Positions 17,564-61,716 of a stretch of 64,000 nucleotides of DNA are shown here, piece by piece; the first letter of the stretch is position 1, and each line of letters begins with the position of its first letter. Below the pieces are notes generated by a model, which ran no database searches, was not told where the DNA came from, and saw only the letters and a program-made list of their open reading frames with translations. The position numbers were made by a program, and so were the translations under genes. This DNA comes from Natrinema versiforme JCM 10478 (GTDB lineage Archaea > Halobacteriota > Halobacteria > Halobacteriales > Natrialbaceae), in NCBI RefSeq assembly GCF_000337195.1, contig NZ_AOID01000019.1, forward strand, positions 1-64,000, read 5' to 3'.

Positions 17564-18066
17564 CGGTCCTCTCCGATTCGTGGTTCGTCCGAGCGGACAG
17601 CCACGCTAGCCTTGAAATTCAGCGGCTCGCCCTCGAAGACGACCGCCGGAATGACAGTCGTGTTCGGGGCCGGCGACACCGCCGCGTATTCGATTCTGCC
17701 CCAGTCATGTGGGCCGATCTCGCCGTCGACGGCGGAGGTGTTGACCACGAGCGCGTCGGCGGTGGTCTCGACGACCGACGCCTCGTAGGTCCGTTCGACG
17801 GCCTCGGTCGTCCCCGGCTTGCGGTAGAGGACGTGCAGCCGAGTACGTTCGGCGTGGCCGCCGACCGCGGACGGGTCGCGCTCGAGGACGTATTCGTAAC
17901 AGAGTTTGGCGGCGTAGAATCGCTCGTAGCCTTCGAGGTCGTGTTCGTCGCGGCCGAGTCGCAGCCAGTCGGCCGGGACCGCGTGATAGGAGCGGTCGCG
18001 TCGCAGTGGGTTGTCGTCGGTACTGTCGTCGGTAGCCTTTTTACGGGCTGGCGATTTGGTAGACAT
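17560..18066 (-). CDS. uncharacterised 168-residue protein
   Basis: A soluble protein with a Lys/Arg-rich first 25 residues and a mixed alpha/beta remainder; no family is recognised. A TATA-like AACTATAAG lies near 18170-18178, giving a leader of about 80 bases that contains the direct repeats GTAACCTCCG (18070) and GTAACCTCGG (18133), a possible regulator site. Confidence 0.7.
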   Translation of the reverse strand: MSTKSPARKKATDDSTDDNPLRRDRSYHAVPADWLRLGRDEHDLEGYERFYAAKLCYEYVLERDPSAVGGHAERTRLHVLYRKPGTTEAVERTYEASVVETTADALVVNTSAVDGEIGPHDWGRIEYAAVSPAPNTTVIPAVVFEGEPLNFKASVAVRSDEPRIGEDR

Positions 18067-18443
18067 GGCTTCTGTAACCTCCGAAGCCGAGGTCGGGTGC
18101 TTAGGACCACCCGGCCAGATTCTCGCGCTGGCGTAACCTCGGACACTAGAGTCCTAGCTAGCCGACCACTTATAGTTAAGGGAATAGTTCCATATTCGTT
18201 ACTGTATTTGAAACAGCCACCGGGTGCCGTTTTCCGTGCCGAACTACCAGATACAGTAGGTTATTTTCAGAGCGAAATGCCGCCGACTCGAGTACGGGCG
18301 ACTGCCGGGCCAGAGCTAGCGCCAGAACAGATCGATATCGGAGTGCGTCCACGGGAACGACATTCCATGAACCGCCACACAGCGGCGTATATTCATGATA
18401 TGCTAGAGGTTTATCCGATTCCGGTGTGACGGAATAGGCATCA
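18067..18443. other. 377-base intergenic region
   Basis: It holds the leftward promoter of the 168-residue gene with its leader repeats (18070-18142), a small GGAC/GTCC hairpin near 18143, and a TTTATCC box near 18410 that would suit a leaderless start at 18444. A leftward frame covers much of it but is judged doubtful. Confidence 0.4.
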
Positions 18444-19994: not shown

Positions 19995-21020
19995 CTAATC
20001 TGCGCTGGCCGGGGTATCGTCGGTGTTGTCGGCGTCTCGTGGGTCGGCTTTCACGCGATCCCACTTTGAATGACAGCTTTTGCACAGCGTAACCAGATTC
20101 TCGAGGTCGTCGGGGTCGCCGTCGTCGGTCGCGACGTGATGGACGTGTAGCTGTTGTCCGTACTCCGATTCGTGCTCGTCGCTGCCCATCCCACAGACCA
20201 CACACTCGTTTCCGTCACGATCGCGCACCCGATCCGCGCGGTCCAACCAGTCAGACGGATAGTCGTTGGGCCACGTTCGGTCCGGCGTATCGAGTTCGAA
20301 GCCGGCCGTCTCGAGTGCGTTTCGCAGTGTGTCGAACTCCCGGTAGTACGGCGTCGGCGAGTGGCGGCCGTATTCCTCGAGTTCTGGTTTCGTCGGCGCG
20401 CGGCCGAATATCTCACCAAGCCGCTCGAGGTCGTCCAGTAGGTCGTCCCGATCAACGCGCCGGCCGTAGGACTGTTGCGTACCGGACAGACCAGCCTGCT
20501 CTCGCGCCTCGAGCCACGACCCGAAGCGCCGGACGTAGGTCGTGTGTGCATGGCCAGTTAGTTCTGATATCTCCTCTGCCAGCGGGTCCCGCCCCAACTC
20601 GTCGGCCGCATCCCGAAGCGACTGTAACAGCTCGTCGTCGGCAATATCTTCGCGGTGGTTCGGCTCGAGATCGGCGCGTTCGACGGCGTCGTTCCATCCG
20701 TCGAACTTGTTGTAGTACGGCTGTGTCGAGAACCGACCACGGTCGTTCATATCGACTTTCGTCGGTGTGCCGTCGATTTCGGCGGCCAACTCCCGAATCG
20801 CCTCGAGTAGTTCATCGCGCGACGGCCCCTGTTGGCGCGGTTCGCGCTCGAGGTTAGCTGCGGCGAGTGCGTCGTCGAAACTGTCGAATTCGTTGCTATA
20901 CGGTTGGTAGGAATACTCCGCGTGCTCGCGCACATCGGTCGTCGTCGGCGTCTTGTCGAGATCGGCCGCAAGTCGCTCGAGTTCGGCCACCAAATCGGCG
21001 CGCGTGATCTTCGCGGGCAT
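19995..21020 (-). CDS. HNH endonuclease with four helical DNA-reading repeats
   Basis: A 341-residue protein with four copies of the helical repeat (ELLEAIRELAAEIDGTPTK ... FDGWNDAV) followed by an HNH domain (QLHVHHVATDDGD ... NLVTLCKSCH) with a CVVCG zinc knuckle. It has the same design as the HNH protein at 8834-9814 but twice the number of repeats, which suggests a longer target. The start at 21020 (MPAKITRADLV) lines up with that protein. It is probably a homing-type nuclease or an element-protection enzyme. Confidence 0.88.
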   Translation of the reverse strand: MPAKITRADLVAELERLAADLDKTPTTTDVREHAEYSYQPYSNEFDSFDDALAAANLEREPRQQGPSRDELLEAIRELAAEIDGTPTKVDMNDRGRFSTQPYYNKFDGWNDAVERADLEPNHREDIADDELLQSLRDAADELGRDPLAEEISELTGHAHTTYVRRFGSWLEAREQAGLSGTQQSYGRRVDRDDLLDDLERLGEIFGRAPTKPELEEYGRHSPTPYYREFDTLRNALETAGFELDTPDRTWPNDYPSDWLDRADRVRDRDGNECVVCGMGSDEHESEYGQQLHVHHVATDDGDPDDLENLVTLCKSCHSKWDRVKADPRDADNTDDTPASAD

Positions 21021-21142
21021 TACGCACACCCACCAGTGGTCGGCGCGTGGTCGTCGTCAGTACTAACTACGGTCGTGCCGGTGGACTTAACACCGGTTGC
21101 TGGATAACGTCGCATGGGTTCTGCGAGCCTCAATCGGGAACC

Positions 21143-45951: not shown

Positions 45952-46404
45952 ATGGCGATGAACAAGTCCGACTATCGGGAACGCTGTCTCGAGGCGAAAG
46001 GCGAGCAGTGTACGATCTGCGACGCGACGGAGAGCATAATCGTCCATCACATTGACGGCGACCGAGAGAACAACGACCTCGACAACCTCACACCCGTTTG
46101 CCGATCCTGCCACAACCGAATCCATGGAAATCACCCAGACTACCGGGAGTGGTACGAGAAATTAGAGGGCGAAGCGGGTCCTGCATTCGCGCAGGCCGAA
46201 GCTCTTCAGAAACCGATCTACATCCGAGAGGAAGCGTGGAACGAATACGACGACTCCCTCGCTCTTGACGTTCGGAAGAAGCTGTACGACATGGATTTTC
46301 GAGATTACGATCGCCGAGAACTGCACGAAGCGACGCTACTGGTAGCAGCGGAACACCCAGAGCTAATCGTCGAGAAGTTCCTCAAAATCCGAGGCGAACT
46401 GTAG
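45952..46404 (+). CDS. HNH endonuclease between two repeat arrays
   Basis: A 150-residue protein with an N-terminal HNH domain (CTICDATESIIVHHIDGD ... LTPVCRSCHNRIHG) and a helical C-terminal half. Repeat array 2 precedes its start and array 3 follows its stop. It may be a homing-type gene inserted into the partition locus, or one adopted into its regulation. Confidence 0.85.
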   Translation: MAMNKSDYRERCLEAKGEQCTICDATESIIVHHIDGDRENNDLDNLTPVCRSCHNRIHGNHPDYREWYEKLEGEAGPAFAQAEALQKPIYIREEAWNEYDDSLALDVRKKLYDMDFRDYDRRELHEATLLVAAEHPELIVEKFLKIRGEL

Positions 46405-48488: not shown

Positions 48489-48617
48489 ATGGGCAAGACG
48501 ATAACGGTGTCCGACCACGTCTACGAAATGCTATCTGAGTTAAAAGACGAGAAAGACCACCAGACATTCGACTCTGCAATCAGGGAGGTGCTACGCGATG
48601 CCGACCACGAAATCTGA
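48489..48617 (+). CDS. 42-residue ribbon-helix-helix protein
   Basis: MGKTITVSDHVYEMLSELKD then FDSAIREVLRD, the VapB-like antitoxin fold common in haloarchaea. It overlaps the tnpB start by 20 bases, so the two are translated together; it may repress the unit. Confidence 0.7.
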   Translation: MGKTITVSDHVYEMLSELKDEKDHQTFDSAIREVLRDADHEI

Positions 48618-49878
48618 ATCTGACACCTACATACGGACTGTCACGGTCCCAATTGAAACACCAACTTCCCGAAAGACTGGGATGCTCAACCGACAGATCA
48701 AAAACTACCTCCTGGCACGCCAGTATGCCGCTAAACACTTCCAGAGCGACGGCGTGGTGGCCAGCGATCTAACGTACTCCAAACGCAACGAGCTTCGGAA
48801 GTCTATCCGCACAAAGCCCGATGTCGATTTGAATGCACGGTCGATTGAAGTGGCCATAACCAGGATGGCGAAAGACTACAGCAAATACGAAACAGATCCG
48901 CGGGCGAGTGAACCGTGGCCTGAGGGTGTCAACATCATTGCTTACTCTGCACAGACGGCATATCTGTTCCACGATACTGGTCGGTACTATCTTTGTGTCC
49001 CTGGGAAGAACGACCACCTGATCCTTCCGTTAGTTGTGTCTGACGATCAATACCACCAAGAAGCTCTGCCTAATCCCGAGGCCGCGAAGGACAGTGGACG
49101 CCGGCCGGGAACAGCGTTGGAAGATTTCGGACCAAGCGATTTCCAAGGGACGGCTGTCGGACTTGGACAGTGTTCGGTAGTGAAACGCGGTCCTCGAGAG
49201 TTCGAACTCCACCTTTCGGTGAAACGCGAGCAGAAGGCGTCACGCAATGTTACTACGCCGCGGTACATTGTCGGTGTCGATCGCGGCCGCAACCAACTCA
49301 TCTACGCAGCGCTTTATGATCGAAAGGAGGATCATGTGAAACAGTGGGTGAATGTTTCCGGGGACGAGGTCGAGAACATGATGGATCAAGTCGCCGATCG
49401 AATCGCTGAATGCCAACAGGCTGGCGTGCTCGAGGAGATGGACAAACTCCGAAGACGGCGACGCCGGTTCAAGCGACAAAAGGACTACGAGGCCGCAAAT
49501 GAGATTGTTGACTTGGCACATGAAGGTCTGCGCGGACAGTCCACACTCGAGTCATATGGCGTTGTAATCGTGCTCGAGTATTTATCTGGTATGAGTCGGC
49601 TAGGTGGGTACTCGGCAGAGCGAAGGCGGTTCGCTGAATGGTCGTACTACCGGCAGTATCTGGCAATCAAAAACAAAGCCGAACCATACGATATTAGTAT
49701 TGAATCGGTCGAATCAGCCTACACTAGCCGAAAGTGCGCGCGGTGCGGTGTCGATGGTGATGAAACACACCGTTCGGGCATACACTTCGAGTGCGAATCG
49801 TGTGGGTACGAGATCCACGCCGACGCGAATGCGGCCGTAAATATCGCAAAGCGGTATGCAGAATCGCTTGAAGCGTAA
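48598..49878 (+). CDS. tnpB: TnpB, RNA-guided nuclease of the IS200/IS605 group
   Basis: A 426-residue protein with an intact RuvC-like site: Asp228 in VGVDRGRNQ, Glu327 in IVLEYLSG and Asp409 in EIHADANAA, with a four-Cys zinc finger between them (CARCG...CESCG). TnpB cuts DNA guided by an RNA from the element's right end and helps the element persist. No tnpA is present, so the unit cannot move alone. A CG-rich hairpin follows the stop. Confidence 0.92.
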   Translation: MPTTKSESDTYIRTVTVPIETPTSRKTGMLNRQIKNYLLARQYAAKHFQSDGVVASDLTYSKRNELRKSIRTKPDVDLNARSIEVAITRMAKDYSKYETDPRASEPWPEGVNIIAYSAQTAYLFHDTGRYYLCVPGKNDHLILPLVVSDDQYHQEALPNPEAAKDSGRRPGTALEDFGPSDFQGTAVGLGQCSVVKRGPREFELHLSVKREQKASRNVTTPRYIVGVDRGRNQLIYAALYDRKEDHVKQWVNVSGDEVENMMDQVADRIAECQQAGVLEEMDKLRRRRRRFKRQKDYEAANEIVDLAHEGLRGQSTLESYGVVIVLEYLSGMSRLGGYSAERRRFAEWSYYRQYLAIKNKAEPYDISIESVESAYTSRKCARCGVDGDETHRSGIHFECESCGYEIHADANAAVNIAKRYAESLEA

Positions 49879-50994: not shown

Positions 50995-51133
50995 CTCGCC
51001 CGAGTCGGTCCCGAAGCTCCCGTTTGGAAAGCGGCGAGCGATAAACTGTCTGCCGGTGGCGGTGCCAGTAGGCCGTCAGCCCCACGGTAATGACGGCGAC
51101 TATCCCACACGCGAAAACGAATTGGTTACTCAT
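50978..51133 (-). CDS. 51-residue single-helix membrane protein
   Basis: MSNQFVFACGIVAVITVGLT forms one membrane helix, followed by a basic tail (HRHRQTVYRSPLSKRELRDR). It overlaps the RHH gene upstream by eight bases. Confidence 0.6.
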   Translation of the reverse strand: MSNQFVFACGIVAVITVGLTAYWHRHRQTVYRSPLSKRELRDRLGRGDGRE

Positions 51134-51335
51134 CGGTATGTCCTCGCAGGTCTGTTTCGTCGGCCACGAGCTGTCGAACCGCCGCGCGGATCGCTGCACT
51201 CCGATTCGGGAACAGGCCAGCATCGACCAACTCCCCGAGCGCGCCGAGTTGGGCCTCGGTCGCCCGGAACGTGACTCGTTCCATGCTGCCGGTCGTCTGT
51301 CGGTCGTGGTCGCCGGTTTCGTACTGGGTGGCCAT
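51126..51335 (-). CDS. ribbon-helix-helix protein, 69 residues
   Basis: Contains MERVTFRATEAQLGALGELV and FPNRSAAIRAAVRQLVADET, a clear strand-helix-helix DNA-binding unit. It is a likely regulator of this leftward operon. Confidence 0.75.
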   Translation of the reverse strand: MATQYETGDHDRQTTGSMERVTFRATEAQLGALGELVDAGLFPNRSAAIRAAVRQLVADETDLRGHTDE

Positions 51336-55062: not shown

Positions 55063-55410
55063 ATGAGTGACGAATCCAGCGGCAACGTTTCGTTTAGCAT
55101 CGATGAGCAGGCCCGACTCTTTGCGTTCGATATCGACCGAAAGGGGCACAATGCCTTGCTTCCATTATTCAAAGATATCTCGAGCGTACTCGAGGTCATC
55201 AATGAAACCAGGCCGACCGGCGGGAGTGATGGACTCCAAGAAAATGAGATATATAATGAAGTGCACAACGATCTCAAAACCAATCTGGGGGCGGATATCT
55301 CCCCGATGCTGGAGTTTCTGGCAGAAATAGACTATCTTGAACAGACGCCATCTGGGAATTGGAAACTCAAGTCATCCGAAAGCAGTGGTCCTAGCATATA
55401 CACGGCATAG
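55063..55410 (+). CDS. winged-helix-like regulator, 115 residues
   Basis: The middle and end (LPLFKDISSVLEVINETRPT, then LGADISPMLEFLAEIDYLEQ and GNWKLK) suggest a helix-turn-helix with wing. The DNA is less GC-rich than its surroundings, suggesting transfer. A T5 tract at 55420 follows. Confidence 0.55.
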   Translation: MSDESSGNVSFSIDEQARLFAFDIDRKGHNALLPLFKDISSVLEVINETRPTGGSDGLQENEIYNEVHNDLKTNLGADISPMLEFLAEIDYLEQTPSGNWKLKSSESSGPSIYTA

Positions 55411-55638: not shown

Positions 55639-56079
55639 CTACCGGCGAGCGAGCGCCTTGTTCGCCCGGCGCTTGTGCTTGAACTCCCGAACCCGCCGTG
55701 CGAGCCGCGCCGTCCACCCGCGATAGTCTACGTCGATATCCACGGTCTCGAGATCGCCAGCGCGGTCGTGGGTATCGATCGACAGTTGGGCGGCGTTCTC
55801 GAGGGCCGGTGCGGACACCCAACACTCGCTGCGAGGCTCGCCGTCGACGGTGGTCGTGGTTGCGAGGTCGCTATCGAAGCCCTCGAGACCGTCACTCTCT
55901 GGCGGCAGGACGTGGATGAAGGTCACGTCGGGGTCGGTTCGGAGCACGACCACGTGGTCGCCGGCCGACGGGGCCGGGAGTGTCACGGTTTGCGGGACGA
56001 CCCGCGGGATGCCGTCGCCGGTCTTGGTTTCGACCGCTTCGACGTTGCCGTACAGCTCGAGTTCGATTGTTTCGGTCAT
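55639..56079 (-). CDS. uncharacterised 146-residue protein
   Basis: A beta-rich, acidic protein (VTLPAPSAGDHVVVLRTDPD) with a basic C-terminal helix (ARLARRVREFKHKRRANKAL). It is the last gene of the leftward operon from 57.8 kb. No family is recognised. Confidence 0.65.
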   Translation of the reverse strand: MTETIELELYGNVEAVETKTGDGIPRVVPQTVTLPAPSAGDHVVVLRTDPDVTFIHVLPPESDGLEGFDSDLATTTTVDGEPRSECWVSAPALENAAQLSIDTHDRAGDLETVDIDVDYRGWTARLARRVREFKHKRRANKALARR

Positions 56080-56228
56080 TCGCTCTCACGCTCGAGGTCG
56101 TCCGGGTTCCAGTATCGCGCACAATCGTCACACAGCCACCGATCGCCGGTTCGCATTTCTCTCACTGTGCCCGAACAGACGGGACAGGTGGACGTCGCTC
56201 GCTGGTAGTGGGTGCCGGGTTCGCTCAT
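56076..56228 (-). CDS. 50-residue zinc-ribbon protein
   Basis: STCPVCSGTVREMRTGDRWL followed by CDDCARYWN: a complete zinc ribbon. ATGA overlaps on both sides. Confidence 0.65.
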   Translation of the reverse strand: MSEPGTHYQRATSTCPVCSGTVREMRTGDRWLCDDCARYWNPDDLERESE

Positions 56229-56491
56229 TCGGTCTCACCCGTCGCCCCTGCGTGCAGTGAGCGATTGTCGCCGCGATCGTGGGTTCCGAGCGCGGTATGC
56301 CCACACGGCTGGAAGGTGTACTCGACGAGTGTCACCGCCCACGCCGAGACGATTTCGCCGCCGTTCGCGACAGTGAAATCGACGCCCGGATCGTCTCTGG
56401 TCTCGGACTCGACTTCGGCCACGTCGTTGCCACACGTCGGGCAGACGATTCCCGCGCCGTCCTCGCTCTTGGATTGTTCGTTTTCTGTCAT
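56225..56491 (-). CDS. 88-residue zinc-binding protein
   Basis: Contains GIVCPTCGNDVAEVESETRD and FQPCGHTALGTHDRG, a Cys/His zinc site in a beta-like fold. ATGA-coupled to both neighbours. The function is unknown. Confidence 0.65.
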   Translation of the reverse strand: MTENEQSKSEDGAGIVCPTCGNDVAEVESETRDDPGVDFTVANGGEIVSAWAVTLVEYTFQPCGHTALGTHDRGDNRSLHAGATGETE

Positions 56492-56760
56492 TCGGAATCA
56501 CCGTCCTCGAAGGCCGTTTCGGCGGGCTTGAAATGCAACTCGGCGCTTTTCGCTGCCGCGTGCCCCTCGAACGCGACCAGCCCGTAGCGCACGGCCGCCC
56601 GGAAGACCGGCCGGAGATCGACGCGCGATTTGTCCTCGTCGCCGACGACCGAGACTGCGGCCGAGGTCTCGAAGTCCGTGGCTTCGACGCCCTCGAGACT
56701 GTTCGCTTCGGCGACAAACCCCCCGAGTCGATCGGCCGGCGGGCGGGGATCGGGCTTCAT
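56488..56760 (-). CDS. uncharacterised 90-residue protein
   Basis: A small acidic alpha/beta protein (LEGVEATDFETSAAVSVVGD, then FRAAVRYGLVAFEGHAA). ATGA-coupled. No family is recognised. Confidence 0.6.
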   Translation of the reverse strand: MKPDPRPPADRLGGFVAEANSLEGVEATDFETSAAVSVVGDEDKSRVDLRPVFRAAVRYGLVAFEGHAAAKSAELHFKPAETAFEDGDSE

Positions 56761-57131
56761 TCAGTCTCACCGTCCTGTTGGGCCTCATACTCGGAGCGCC
56801 ACATGAGCGTGTTGTGACTCTCACACCACGGACACCGGAGGCTGTCGCCGGGTTCGTGGTCGCGCCACTCGCCGTTGCCACAGTTCGAACAGACCACGGG
56901 GTCGTACTCGGTCTCGCCGCCGGCTGGGCCGTCGCCCGTGGGGTGTGGTCTACCCTCGCCGCCTGCCGGCCGCTCGAGGTCGGTCCAATGGACTTCGATG
57001 TATCTCCCGTCGCCGGCCGCGAAGTCGTCGGTGCCTTGCTGAATCTCGGTGACGCGAATGTCGTCGGGAACCTCGGCCGTCTGGCCGTTCAGGTAGACGC
57101 GGAACGGGTTTGAGAGGCCAACGTCACCCAT
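56757..57131 (-). CDS. zinc-ribbon protein, 124 residues
   Basis: The end carries VVCSNCGNGEWRDHEPGDSL and RCPWCESHN, a zinc ribbon; the first half is beta-like (FRVYLNGQTAEVPDDIRVTE). The start at 57131 overlaps the HNH gene by eight bases. Confidence 0.65.
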   Translation of the reverse strand: MGDVGLSNPFRVYLNGQTAEVPDDIRVTEIQQGTDDFAAGDGRYIEVHWTDLERPAGGEGRPHPTGDGPAGGETEYDPVVCSNCGNGEWRDHEPGDSLRCPWCESHNTLMWRSEYEAQQDGETE

Positions 57132-57570
57132 TGGAATCACCACAGACGGCCTCGCGCAACTCGTCAAGCAACTCCGGGTGATGTTCCTTGAGTAGTTCGG
57201 CGTCTTTCTCCAGTTCCTCTATACGCGAACGGACGCGAGAAACGGACTCGTATTTCTTCTTGTCCGGGTCGCCACTCTCACCGGAGATCCGTTCCCGGTC
57301 CGTCGTCGTCATGACGGCACGATATTTTCCTGTCCCGGTCTGACTCTGGTGTTTCTCCTTGTGACAACCTTTGCACAACGTAACCAGATTGTCGGGCTCG
57401 TTCGTTCCACCCTCCGAAACTGGCTCTTTGTGGTGGACATTCGCTGTTTCCACGTGTGGGTTATGCTTCCCACCGACAGGCTCGTCGCATTCTTGACACT
57501 CGTACCCGTCACGCTCGAGGACCGCTCGGCGCGTACTCTGGGCTAACTTTTGTCGCCCTGAACCACTCAT
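57124..57570 (-). CDS. HNH endonuclease with a shared C-terminal module
   Basis: A 148-residue protein: an HNH domain (CQECDEPVGG ... ANVHHKEPVSEGG ... LVTLCKGCHKEKH) and a C-terminal helical module (YESVSRVRSRIEELEKDAEL ... LLDELREAVCG). The same module makes up the 78-residue protein encoded just upstream, so the two probably bind the same partner or each other. ATGA-coupled to that gene. Confidence 0.88.
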   Translation of the reverse strand: MSGSGRQKLAQSTRRAVLERDGYECQECDEPVGGKHNPHVETANVHHKEPVSEGGTNEPDNLVTLCKGCHKEKHQSQTGTGKYRAVMTTTDRERISGESGDPDKKKYESVSRVRSRIEELEKDAELLKEHHPELLDELREAVCGDSNG

Positions 57571-57803
57571 TCGTTCTCACCACAGATTCCGTCGCGCAGC
57601 TCGTCGGCGAGCGAATCGTGCTCCTCGAGTGCGCCTAGATCCTCGTTAGTGAGTTTCTGAATCTTCGAGCGCACACGCGAAACAACGACGTAGTAGTAGC
57701 TGTCCGATACGTCCTTTTCACCGTGTAGGATCGCTTTCTCGTCGTCGGTAAGCAACGCCCGACGATCGTCTTCGGCCATACTGTTGGCTGTCATCGAAGC
57801 CAT
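57567..57803 (-). CDS. small regulator-like protein sharing the HNH tail module
   Basis: A 78-residue protein (LLTDDEKAILHGEKDVSDSY, then VVVSRVRSKIQKLTNEDLGA and DELRDGICG). It matches the last 60 residues of the HNH protein downstream and the short helical modules widespread in haloarchaea. It is the first leftward gene from the four-operator switch and a candidate for the protein that binds it. The start at 57803 suits the leaderless TATA at 57825-57834. Confidence 0.7.
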   Translation of the reverse strand: MASMTANSMAEDDRRALLTDDEKAILHGEKDVSDSYYYVVVSRVRSKIQKLTNEDLGALEEHDSLADELRDGICGENE

Positions 57804-57824
57804 GTTACCAGTTTCGGTAGCCCA

Positions 57825-57834
57825 CCTTATCAAA
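57825..57834 (-). promoter_or_regulatory. leftward TATA-like box of the switch
   Basis: In the leftward direction TTTGATAAGG is centred about 27 bases before the ATG at 57803, between operators 1 and 2. Confidence 0.55.
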
Positions 57835-57869
57835 TTACCGTATATGGTAGCGTTACCACAAGCGGTAAC

Positions 57870-57877
57870 TATATAAT
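57870..57877 (+). promoter_or_regulatory. rightward TATA box of the switch
   Basis: TATATAAT is centred about 26 bases before the ATG at 57900, between operators 3 and 4. Confidence 0.7.
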
Positions 57878-57899
57878 GGTAGCTACCACATGTGGTAAT

Positions 57900-58877
57900 A
57901 TGGCAGCGAAGAACTCTACCGCGGACGACGAACCACTCACCGAAACCGAACAGCAAGCCGTCGACGTGATCGAAACGGCCGGCGAGGGCGACCAGGTCCT
58001 ATTCAACGATCGTGTGCAGCCGCTGACAGTCAAACGCGACAACGGCAGCCCTGTCGGACTCGGAAAAGACAACTCCCTCGTGCTCGAGGGGCCACGCGGC
58101 GGCCGATACACGCTTTCGCACAACACCCGCTACGGAAACTCGGTTTCACTCCAGCGACACACCGGCTACAACGACGATGGATTCCGAACCTACGACGACC
58201 TCACGCTCGAGTCGGTCGAACTCGTCAACCACCACGAGTTCCGAATCGGGCAGGTACTCGAGGTCACGGACCCACTCTGCGAGGAATACTACGAGGTCGT
58301 GACCGATCTTTCCGATGGCGGATGCTACGACGTGGAGACGGTCGGCATCCGAATCCGCGACGGAGAGATCGCTGGCACGAAAGAGACAGGCCTGTTCTAC
58401 AGCCACGACAAAGAGCGCCTGTTCAACGGCCAACTCGAGGTTGTCGACGACCTTGGACTCTGGAACGGGTCGCGGGCTGAGTATTACGACACCGAGGCCG
58501 ACGAGACGGTCTACCTCTCCGACCCGCACATCCGCGGCGTTGACTGTCGCCCCGTTGACGGCACCGGACTCGAGGTCGTGGACTGGGATACGATTCTGTT
58601 CGGTGACCGGTTCGAACTCGCCGACAAGGACGACGAGAAAGAGGTCATGACCGACGGCGGGACGGTGGCCGCGAGCGGCACGGAACGATACTGCGGGACG
58701 TGTGGCTCCGAGTTCGACGAGTGGTCCGTTCGCGATGGTTACGGGCCAGTTTTCGAGACGATCGAATACACGTGCCCGAACGGCCACCGGGCCAAGGAAC
58801 ACTACGACCGTCGGGGATATGTCACGCAGAGTCTCGGCGTGAAGCGGCGTTCGCGGGGTACGGAGGGCGGCCAATGA
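57900..58877 (+). CDS. uncharacterised 325-residue protein with C-terminal zinc ribbon
   Basis: The first 60 residues include LTETEQQAVDVIETAGEGDQ. The centre is beta-rich, with repeated YDT/YDDG strands. The last 65 residues carry YCGTCGSEFDEWSVRD and YTCPNGHRAKEH, a zinc ribbon. No family is recognised. It is the first rightward gene of the four-operator switch and is followed by an ATGA-coupled zinc mini-protein. Confidence 0.7.
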   Translation: MAAKNSTADDEPLTETEQQAVDVIETAGEGDQVLFNDRVQPLTVKRDNGSPVGLGKDNSLVLEGPRGGRYTLSHNTRYGNSVSLQRHTGYNDDGFRTYDDLTLESVELVNHHEFRIGQVLEVTDPLCEEYYEVVTDLSDGGCYDVETVGIRIRDGEIAGTKETGLFYSHDKERLFNGQLEVVDDLGLWNGSRAEYYDTEADETVYLSDPHIRGVDCRPVDGTGLEVVDWDTILFGDRFELADKDDEKEVMTDGGTVAASGTERYCGTCGSEFDEWSVRDGYGPVFETIEYTCPNGHRAKEHYDRRGYVTQSLGVKRRSRGTEGGQ

Positions 58878-59089: not shown

Positions 59090-59641
59090 ATGTCCGAGAA
59101 CGACGACTCAGACGACGATTCCGAGAACAAACACACCGGCAACCCGGAGGGCGACCGATTCACGAAACTCCGCGGTGCCGAGTACGACCGCGTGAACGAT
59201 CTGCTCCGCGACCAGACCACACTCACCGCCCGCGAGTGGGCGATCGCCCGCGTGTGCAACGATTTCCGAACCGGAACGGGAATCAAGTACACGGCAGCCG
59301 GCGAGGCACTTCCCGATATCGTCCCGTTCATGGCCGACGAGTACTCTGCCGGCGCGGTCAGTAGCGCGAAGCACCGCTTCGACACGAAAGTCCAAGAAGC
59401 GGCCGGGACGCTGTTGTACGGCGCGCTGTGTGGCGTCTACACGACCGACGAACTAGACGAGATTCTACACGACGCGACCGAAGTGGCGAAGTTCCTGATT
59501 GAACTCGAGGGCGGGGAAATCGACCACGAGCACGAACTCGAGGCCGAACAACAGCTCGCCGACGCCATGCGTGAGGTTCGCGAGAAAAGCGTCGAAGTGC
59601 GCGACCGGCTCGAATCGGAGGACGACGATGGGGGAGAATAA
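59090..59641 (+). CDS. DUF5806-like haloarchaeal protein
   Basis: A 183-residue acidic protein with LLRDQTTLTAREWAIARVCN, then PDIVPFMADEYSAGAVSSAK and EILHDATEVAKFLIELEGGE. From memory this follows the conserved haloarchaeal family annotated DUF5806 throughout, including its length. The function is unknown. The start at 59090 follows the tRNA-like element. It overlaps the HNH gene by 14 bases. Confidence 0.7.
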   Translation: MSENDDSDDDSENKHTGNPEGDRFTKLRGAEYDRVNDLLRDQTTLTAREWAIARVCNDFRTGTGIKYTAAGEALPDIVPFMADEYSAGAVSSAKHRFDTKVQEAAGTLLYGALCGVYTTDELDEILHDATEVAKFLIELEGGEIDHEHELEAEQQLADAMREVREKSVEVRDRLESEDDDGGE

Positions 59642-60260
59642 CGTCTCCTCGAGTGCGGGCTATCCGACGCCTCACGACAACACCTGCGACGAGTGCGGGT
59701 TCGAATGGCGCTCGCGGGGAACGCCCGCCGCGTGCCCGGAGTGTTCGGCCGACATGCCAGCACACGGGACGTGTATCGATCTCTTCGACCGCGCCCGTGG
59801 CGTCGACGAGACGCCGGTCGGCGAGGATGCGGTTGCTGACCTTGACCGAGAAATGGATCGGCGACTCGTCGGCGACCGTGAGACAGGGCTGTTCGACGGC
59901 CTAACCGACGCCGAAGATGACTACTACAAGGAACGCCGGAGTTACCAGCACTCTGGCGAGCGCGATGGCCCGGAGTTTCGCGGCCGGTTCTGGCAGGTTC
60001 AACGGGAAAAGGCACTCGAGCGCGATCGGCGCTGTCAGTCCTGTGGGATCGACCGGCGGCACTATCAGGAATTTCGCGGCTATGATCTCGACGTACACCA
60101 CATCGTCCCTGAGAAAGAGTTCGAATCGGCCGTCGATGCACACGCCCTCGAGAACCTAATCACGCTCTGCAAGGACTGTCACGGCCATCTCGAGGGCGTT
60201 CCGCGGAAGAAACTCGTCTCGTACACAGAGTACCACGACTGGTTGGATAACGACGAGTAA
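59628..60260 (+). CDS. HNH endonuclease with N-terminal zinc ribbon
   Basis: A 210-residue protein. Residues about 18-45 form a zinc ribbon (NTCDECGFEWRSRG...ACPECSAD), followed by a helical region and an HNH domain (CQSCGIDRRHYQEFRG ... LDVHHIVPEKEFESA ... LITLCKDCHGHLEG). It ends the rightward operon of the four-operator switch and mirrors the HNH gene in the leftward one. Confidence 0.85.
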   Translation: MGENNVSSSAGYPTPHDNTCDECGFEWRSRGTPAACPECSADMPAHGTCIDLFDRARGVDETPVGEDAVADLDREMDRRLVGDRETGLFDGLTDAEDDYYKERRSYQHSGERDGPEFRGRFWQVQREKALERDRRCQSCGIDRRHYQEFRGYDLDVHHIVPEKEFESAVDAHALENLITLCKDCHGHLEGVPRKKLVSYTEYHDWLDNDE

Positions 60261-60483: not shown

Positions 60484-61716
60484 ATGAATAGCCAACAGGA
60501 AACGATCAACTGGTCCCAAAAATCGCTCGAGGAACTCCGCGAGTTCTGGTATGCCGAAATCGAAACGGCGCTGCGACGCGCCGGCCACGATCTCGAGTCT
60601 CGACCGACCTACCAGGACATCGTCGACGCCGGCTTTTCGGGCATCGCCTACACGCTGCGCGAACACCACGAGATGACGCTGACCGACTTTCTCGAGTCGG
60701 TTGGCTACGAGGGACCCGATACAGACGACTCCTACCAGTGGGGGATCGGCGACGAAACGACCATCGACGCGCTCGAGGAACTCCTGCGGCGGATCGATAA
60801 CAAACGGGCCGACTCGACGACGCGCTCGAAGCGCTATCGGCTCGCAACCTACGTGCGGCTGTACGAGACGGTCCACGGCACGGCGGCGATCGTCGACCGT
60901 GTGCTGGACGAGGAACACGAGTACGACGAACTCCGGCGCATCGAAGCCGTCCTATACGAACTTGACGACGAACTCGACAGTCCCGAATCGAAGCTCCGGT
61001 ATCTGAGCGACATTCGAGAGTTCTACACCCATCTCGAGACGCGCCACGGTGCGCCGTTCAATCCGGCGGACAACGTCGACCACGGGGAAATCTGGGACGG
61101 ACGGGTCGACGACGAAAAGGACAATCCGGCGCTCTCGAGCGGCCAGGTGCGGACGCTGTACGACGCCGCCGACGGCCCCGACGAGGGGCTTCTCGTACTC
61201 GCGCTGTGTGCGTGGGGGCTTCGCCGAAGCGAGGTCGCACGGTTGCACGTCTCGCAGCTCGTACTCGACGGCGACGACCCGCATATCGCGTTTGACGACC
61301 GAAAGAACGGGCCGGGGACGGTCGCGTTGATCTACGGGGTGCCCGAACTCACCGACCGACTCGATACCCTCGGCAGCCGCGATCGGGAGTGGAACGGCTA
61401 TCTGTTTCCTTCGACCGAGTCCTCGAGCGGCCACGTGACCGGCGAGACGATACAGGCTCGGTTCAAGCGGCTGGCACAGCGAGCGGAGGTTCGCGTTCGC
61501 GGCGAGTGGCCGACCTCGAAAACAGGTCGTCGATTCTGGTATACGACCTACAATCAGGCCATGACTGACCTACTGGACAATCTCGACGTGATCGCTGGTG
61601 AACAGGGGAGCAGTGATCCATCGGTGGTACTGAAAAACTACCTCTCGGAAGCCGAACGGCGGAAGTACCGACGCGAATTCATGCGCGAACGGCTTGCTGA
61701 GGCGTTTGAGAGGTAA
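60484..61716 (+). CDS. tyrosine recombinase / integrase
   Basis: A 410-residue protein. An N-terminal helical domain (residues 1-210) precedes a catalytic domain with Arg247/248 in CAWGLRRSEVARL, Lys274, an Arg349/350 box (KTGRRFWYTTYNQAM) in which the usual His is absent, and the nucleophile Tyr386 in KNYLSEAERR. It would integrate or excise the element, or resolve multimers. The start at 60484 (MNSQQETINW) is preferred; 60439 is possible. Confidence 0.85.
   Translation: MNSQQETINWSQKSLEELREFWYAEIETALRRAGHDLESRPTYQDIVDAGFSGIAYTLREHHEMTLTDFLESVGYEGPDTDDSYQWGIGDETTIDALEELLRRIDNKRADSTTRSKRYRLATYVRLYETVHGTAAIVDRVLDEEHEYDELRRIEAVLYELDDELDSPESKLRYLSDIREFYTHLETRHGAPFNPADNVDHGEIWDGRVDDEKDNPALSSGQVRTLYDAADGPDEGLLVLALCAWGLRRSEVARLHVSQLVLDGDDPHIAFDDRKNGPGTVALIYGVPELTDRLDTLGSRDREWNGYLFPSTESSSGHVTGETIQARFKRLAQRAEVRVRGEWPTSKTGRRFWYTTYNQAMTDLLDNLDVIAGEQGSSDPSVVLKNYLSEAERRKYRREFMRERLAEAFER

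Follow-up and report, generated by a model that had tools for sequence, protein, structure and literature searches.

In a 64,000-nucleotide stretch of the Natrinema versiforme genome (the window), four palindromes of the form TACC-N6-GGTA surround two opposed promoters, and the 78-residue protein encoded by the first leftward gene, P0001, is proposed to be an autoregulatory repressor of both operons in an immunity-type switch. We give this reading a probability of about 0.8. The four sites are very probably the docking sites of P0001, as judged from comparison with its relatives. What is proposed as new is a regulatory role and operator arrays for phrog_26393, a family to which no function had been attached; in the literature searched, no function was found for this family, and its regulators and operators are undescribed there.

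Operators and promoters in the window

The four palindromes are exact matches with different N6 cores, and their centers lie 30, 18, and 30 bp apart, just as the first-pass annotation had described them (Table 1). When one base is added per side, all four sites read [T/C]TACC-N6-GGTA[A/G]. Each 30-bp interval encloses one TATA-like stretch, and the claim that sites stand on either side of both opposed TATA boxes holds in the window sequence. The outer sites, said to almost reach the start codons, indeed stop 2 bp short of the leftward ATG at 57803 and of the rightward ATG at 57900. From the TATA-ATG distance of 27–28 bp, both transcripts are expected to be leaderless. One HNH gene had been predicted for each operon, and one is found in each. 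Two other leftward genes that were tested (56757-57167 and 55639-56079) gave no match above the cut-off to curated families. The integrase gene in the rightward direction may have its own promoter, given the 224-bp gap before it.

Table 1. Features of the divergent region and of the two operons.
Feature	Position	Strand	Basis
Further small genes of the leftward operon, start/stop codons overlapping	55639..57143	-	open reading frames
P0003, HNH nuclease fused to C-terminal P0001-family domain	57124..57570	-	PF01844 E 1.5e-12; phrog_26393 residues 79-147, E 1.6e-24
P0001, 78 aa, first leftward gene, proposed autoregulatory repressor	57567..57803	-	phrog_26393 match and comparative genomics
Operator 1 TACCAGTTTCGGTA	57806..57819 (16-bp frame 57805-57820)	.	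exact match; between leftward TATA and leftward ATG
Leftward TATA-like box ATTTGATAA	57828..57836	-	read from sequence; ~28 bp from ATG
Operator 2 TACCGTATATGGTA	57836..57849	.	exact match; directly upstream of leftward TATA (BRE region)
Operator 3 TACCACAAGCGGTA	57854..57867	.	exact match; directly upstream of rightward TATA (BRE region)
Rightward TATA box TATATAA	57870..57876	+	read from sequence; ~27 bp from ATG
Operator 4 TACCACATGTGGTA	57884..57897	.	exact match; between rightward TATA and rightward ATG
P0002 (325 aa), first gene of the rightward operon	57900..58877	+	matches no known family
DUF5806 protein, rightward operon	59090..59641	+	PF19122 E 2.1e-52
Second HNH protein, rightward operon	59628..60260 (start approximate)	+	PF01844 E 7.8e-10
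Tyrosine integrase, downstream in rightward direction	60484..61716	+	phrog_1 E 1.9e-16

Proposed mechanism

In the proposed mechanism, a dimer of P0001 would sit on each TACC-N6-GGTA palindrome. At each promoter, the inner dimer would cover the BRE side of the TATA box, which is needed for TFB recognition, and the outer dimer would cover the stretch from TATA to ATG, where the polymerase lands and starts. With inner and outer sites occupied, both leaderless promoters would therefore be blocked, including that of P0001. The central spacing of 18 bp would place the inner dimers side by side, so that they might cooperate. P0001 would thus repress its own operon and the opposite one, which leads towards the integrase, and the whole would be a lysogeny- or immunity-type switch of a plasmid- or virus-like mobile element with ParA and Orc1/Cdc6-like genes. 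As in divergent-promoter immunity switches, the regulator gene is divergent from an operon, and several operators overlap both promoters. We infer dimer binding, repression, cooperativity, and immunity by P0001; repression instead of activation is suggested by analogy.

It is possible, though less likely, that P0001 binds the array as an activator, or as an alternating switch in which outer and inner sites are filled at different concentrations. From the sites upstream of TATA, TBP/TFB might be recruited, the strength of the four sites may differ with their cores, and AvtR of an Acidianus virus activates and also represses (PMC5569661). However, several relatives have their start codon within or next to the last site, and in one type of array (TTTGC, see below) the last site, TTTGCAATGGCGCAAA, contains it; this position suits blocking better.

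The P0001 family and its arrays

P0001 matches the phrog_26393 profile with its whole length (residues 2-78, E 8.6e-14), and all of the 82 aligned relatives match it as well. No Pfam or NCBIfam match was obtained for P0001, and a profile search of the PDB gave non-significant hits only; no DNA-binding fold emerged from these searches. Ribbon-helix-helix models are absent among the Pfam matches of P0001 or any relative. Models of the AbrB/MazE type are likewise not matched by P0001 in Pfam; the immunity proteins of the SNJ1 ORF4 type presumably belong to this MazE/AbrB superfamily. When genome contigs were searched with P0001 alone, no match was found. Relatives amount to about 90 copies across 56 of the 125 genomes of the host family. 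They are carried by plasmids and also by viruses, in which HJTV-4 gp36, Humcor1 HrrHm1_155, and HRTV-DL1 ORFS25A, all annotated as hypothetical protein, each sit at the junction of opposed genes.

The literal motif TACC-N6-GGTA is found in none of the upstream regions of the first 29 relatives (0/29), and these regions, when read, contain arrays of other palindromes. The upstream regions of P0001 relatives were scanned without bias for any 5-mer half-site with gaps of 2–8, and an array with a score of at least 7 was found in 40 of 104 regions (more than half of the relatives being without one at this threshold), whereas dinucleotide shuffling gave such a score in 0 of 1040 cases and windows of matched composition, taken from the same loci, in 3 of 312. 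The arrays fall, unforced, into a common register, in which the half-site TT[A/T][C/G]N at positions -8 to -4 is followed by six spacer bases and the mirror half. The half-site types include TTACT, TTAGC, TTTGC, TTTCC, CTACA, and TTACG/C, and that of the window is TTACC. Center distances in the relatives are mostly 18–19 bp, followed by 24, 27, 30, 32–34, and 44 bp. Within one array, the letters change together in all sites. Thus, the architecture of the array is conserved but the letters of the half-site are not. At a new locus, L316, no array was seen.

These arrays in front of the genes of the relatives support the suggestion of the first-pass annotation that a shared regulator acts on both promoters. 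Across haloarchaeal viruses and plasmids, the family would have kept the geometry as changes in the protein went along with changes in the half-site, and each element is therefore probably insensitive to repressors from other elements.

Which protein probably binds the array

The 78-residue protein had been put forward as a candidate binder, and comparative genomics favors it, since the array geometry travels with P0001 relatives. In the array loci, the first divergent genes belong to 45 families and the downstream genes to 63. The common element is therefore the P0001 relative, as it is bound to be given how the loci were collected. When 16 clusters at <70% identity are compared, similar proteins go with similar half-sites (Mantel r 0.54; p 0.0001). 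The best association between a residue and a base, at half-site position -5, has p 0.002 and loses significance once corrected for 228 tests. Both the Mantel and the column associations could be due in part to gene and promoter being inherited together. In a held-out test, six new loci with the helix NYRYRVVSR were obtained by a scan of genome contigs, and the predicted half-site TTACT came first of 1024 in all six, tied in one. For one helix subtype, the half-site is hence predictable from the protein.

The scan for paired TACC-N6-GGTA sites that had been recommended failed in its literal form in the sampled haloarchaeal genomes, because the half-site diverges among relatives, but it did succeed at two loci whose proteins are about 50% identical to P0001. 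L315 of Halorubrum californiense (50% identity) has ACC-N6-GGT sites with spacings of 18 and 29 bp, and its helix is nearly identical to that of the window (YYYSVVSRVRRK versus YYYVVVSRVRSK). L249 on a Halolamina plasmid (49% identity) has the sites TTACCACATGTGGTCA and TTACCGCATGTGGTCA, 24 bp apart. The letters of the window therefore recur with close relatives of P0001.

It is improbable that the sites are bound by some other protein encoded on the element and that P0001 is a mere neighbor. The candidates would be a ribbon-helix-helix (CopG-type) protein at 51126-51281 (RHH_1, PF01402, E 8e-6), whose fold is frequent in repressors of archaeal viruses; P0002, which heads the controlled operon; and the protein at 55063, which had been annotated as a winged helix and for which no family match was found. 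However, a search of the other array loci gave no relative of any of the three, the genes divergent from P0001 relatives are diverse, and in unseen loci the half-sites track P0001-type sequence.

Other content of the element

The contig also encodes ParA (44541) and an Orc1/Cdc6-like protein (21421), and in view of these genes the sites might be replication iterons or a partition or origin site. This is very improbable, as the repeats of the window are inverted and not direct and frame two TATA boxes, the adjacent genes are P0001 and P0002 with no initiator gene next door, and arrays of the same kind stand beside P0001 relatives in tailed viruses and diverse plasmids. In addition, the window has a gene for a TnpB-like protein at 48598-49878 (Cas12f1-like TNB domain, PF07282) and one for an HNH protein with four homing-endonuclease-associated repeats at 19995-21029 (PF18780, E 6e-69). 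At another locus, a CRISPR-DR24 repeat-like match (L018:2101-2131) reached 34.8 bits against a gathering score of 35.

Occurrence of the literal motif

TACC-N6-GGTA has five exact matches in the window against an expectation of 0.32, a count not attained in any of 100 shuffles. The fifth site, at 46141, is near chance level, and so are sites with one mismatch (20 found, 11.4 expected). In the whole genome of 4.19 Mb, the motif occurs at 27 places, fewer than the 43 of a reversed control pattern; four of the 27 are packed into 92 bp, and the genome-wide scan gave no second cluster. No other of 391 genomes of the host class has a comparable arrangement (at most 32 bp between sites); the other matches there come as lone pairs, many of them containing repeated units, plus one tandem repeat. 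In viral contigs, the scan for paired sites gave matches too numerous for specificity. Palindromes are commoner in A+T-rich promoter DNA, but the dinucleotide shuffles and the composition-matched control windows refute an origin of the array by chance or sequence composition, whose probability is negligible.

The HNH fusion protein

The second domain of P0003 is 39% identical to P0001 and 85% identical to a lone regulator at locus L205, whose array is of the TTAGC type (TTAGC-N6-GCTAA) and not TTACC. Among the 125 genomes of the host family, no other intact fusion of HNH and P0001 domains was found, and one candidate has an internal stop. Sites of the TTAGC type occur in the window and its own genome at chance level only, so that P0003 might target other elements. 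A doubtful but possible reading is that P0003 is a nuclease directed against the immunity regions of competing elements, the operators of its own element being of another type, and that the repressor family doubles as a targeting module in the competition among haloarchaeal elements.

A leader RNA possibly shared with PhiH1-like switches

A leader RNA of about 80 nt, folded as a three-way junction and matching no Rfam entry, was observed in the interval that separates the array from the divergent gene. Examples are L008:1826-1908, L025:1823-1910, and L246:5799-5881, with about 70 further loci, and one in the window's own genome (G000:C60:38940-39023). The leader is found in 81 of 125 host-family genomes, and its covariation is strong (score 0.609, versus 0.228 in shuffles). 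The 3′ strand of P1 can alternatively pair with bases just ahead of the ATG, and by this predicted pairing the leader would resemble a translational switch. It lies on the opposite transcript in 47 loci with a P0001 relative, the locus of the window not being among them. Elsewhere in the window, at 18064-18153 (-), there is a weak match to the leader model (23.3 bits, E 0.006).

The same leader is also present at loci where no P0001 relative lies within 1.5 kb; of these, 14 were examined. The gene opposite the leader in those loci mostly encodes a small winged-helix or similar protein, and PhiCh1 Rep, reported to be a winged-helix repressor (PMC4284463), matches two of them. The early lytic transcript T4 of PhiH1 has its mapped start on the first base of a similar three-stem leader (L320:2157-2240), opposite repR, and in PhiCh1 a similar arrangement lies between ORF48 and ORF49 (L321). 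The leader model (R1) does not score at the PhiH1 leader, and the likeness was judged by eye. As either a P0001 relative or a winged-helix-like gene stands opposite the same leader, P0001 relatives seem to stand where PhiH-like switches have their repressor, having replaced it as an unrelated protein. The genes of PhiH1 RepR and PhiCh1 Rep (ORF48) are small and divergent from an early lytic operon, with the operator region in between, and P0001 is likewise encoded by a small gene divergent from an operon, with putative operators in between. Unlike in those switches, the P0001 profile matches neither protein, and queries of the P0001 family gave no match to PhiH1 or PhiCh1 in a searched collection that included both records.

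Comparison with other switches

In bacteriophage lambda, several similar palindromes at OR and OL control divergent promoters through CI and Cro. The window likewise has several similar palindromes at divergent promoters. However, the host machinery is unrelated, the promoters of the window being archaeal TATA/TFB promoters, and its four sites at 30-18-30 serve both promoters symmetrically, unlike those of lambda. Among regulators of archaeal viruses, SSV1 F55, AvtR, and SvtR are ribbon-helix-helix proteins (PMC5569661). P0001 resembles them as a very small protein with several sites, predicted to be bound, at its own and the opposing promoters, and differs from them in having no ribbon-helix-helix match.

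Implications

Few repressors of haloarchaeal viruses have been studied, chiefly Rep of PhiH and PhiCh1 (PMC4284463). The present analysis suggests what phrog_26393, a PHROG of unknown function, may do, and points to a widespread, uncharacterized family of proteins with some 70 residues, whose operators can be read in dozens of elements. Because the operators are readable, DNA specificity would be predictable and swappable, elements could be sorted into immunity groups by their sequence, and haloarchaeal genetics may gain small repressors that are orthogonal to one another.
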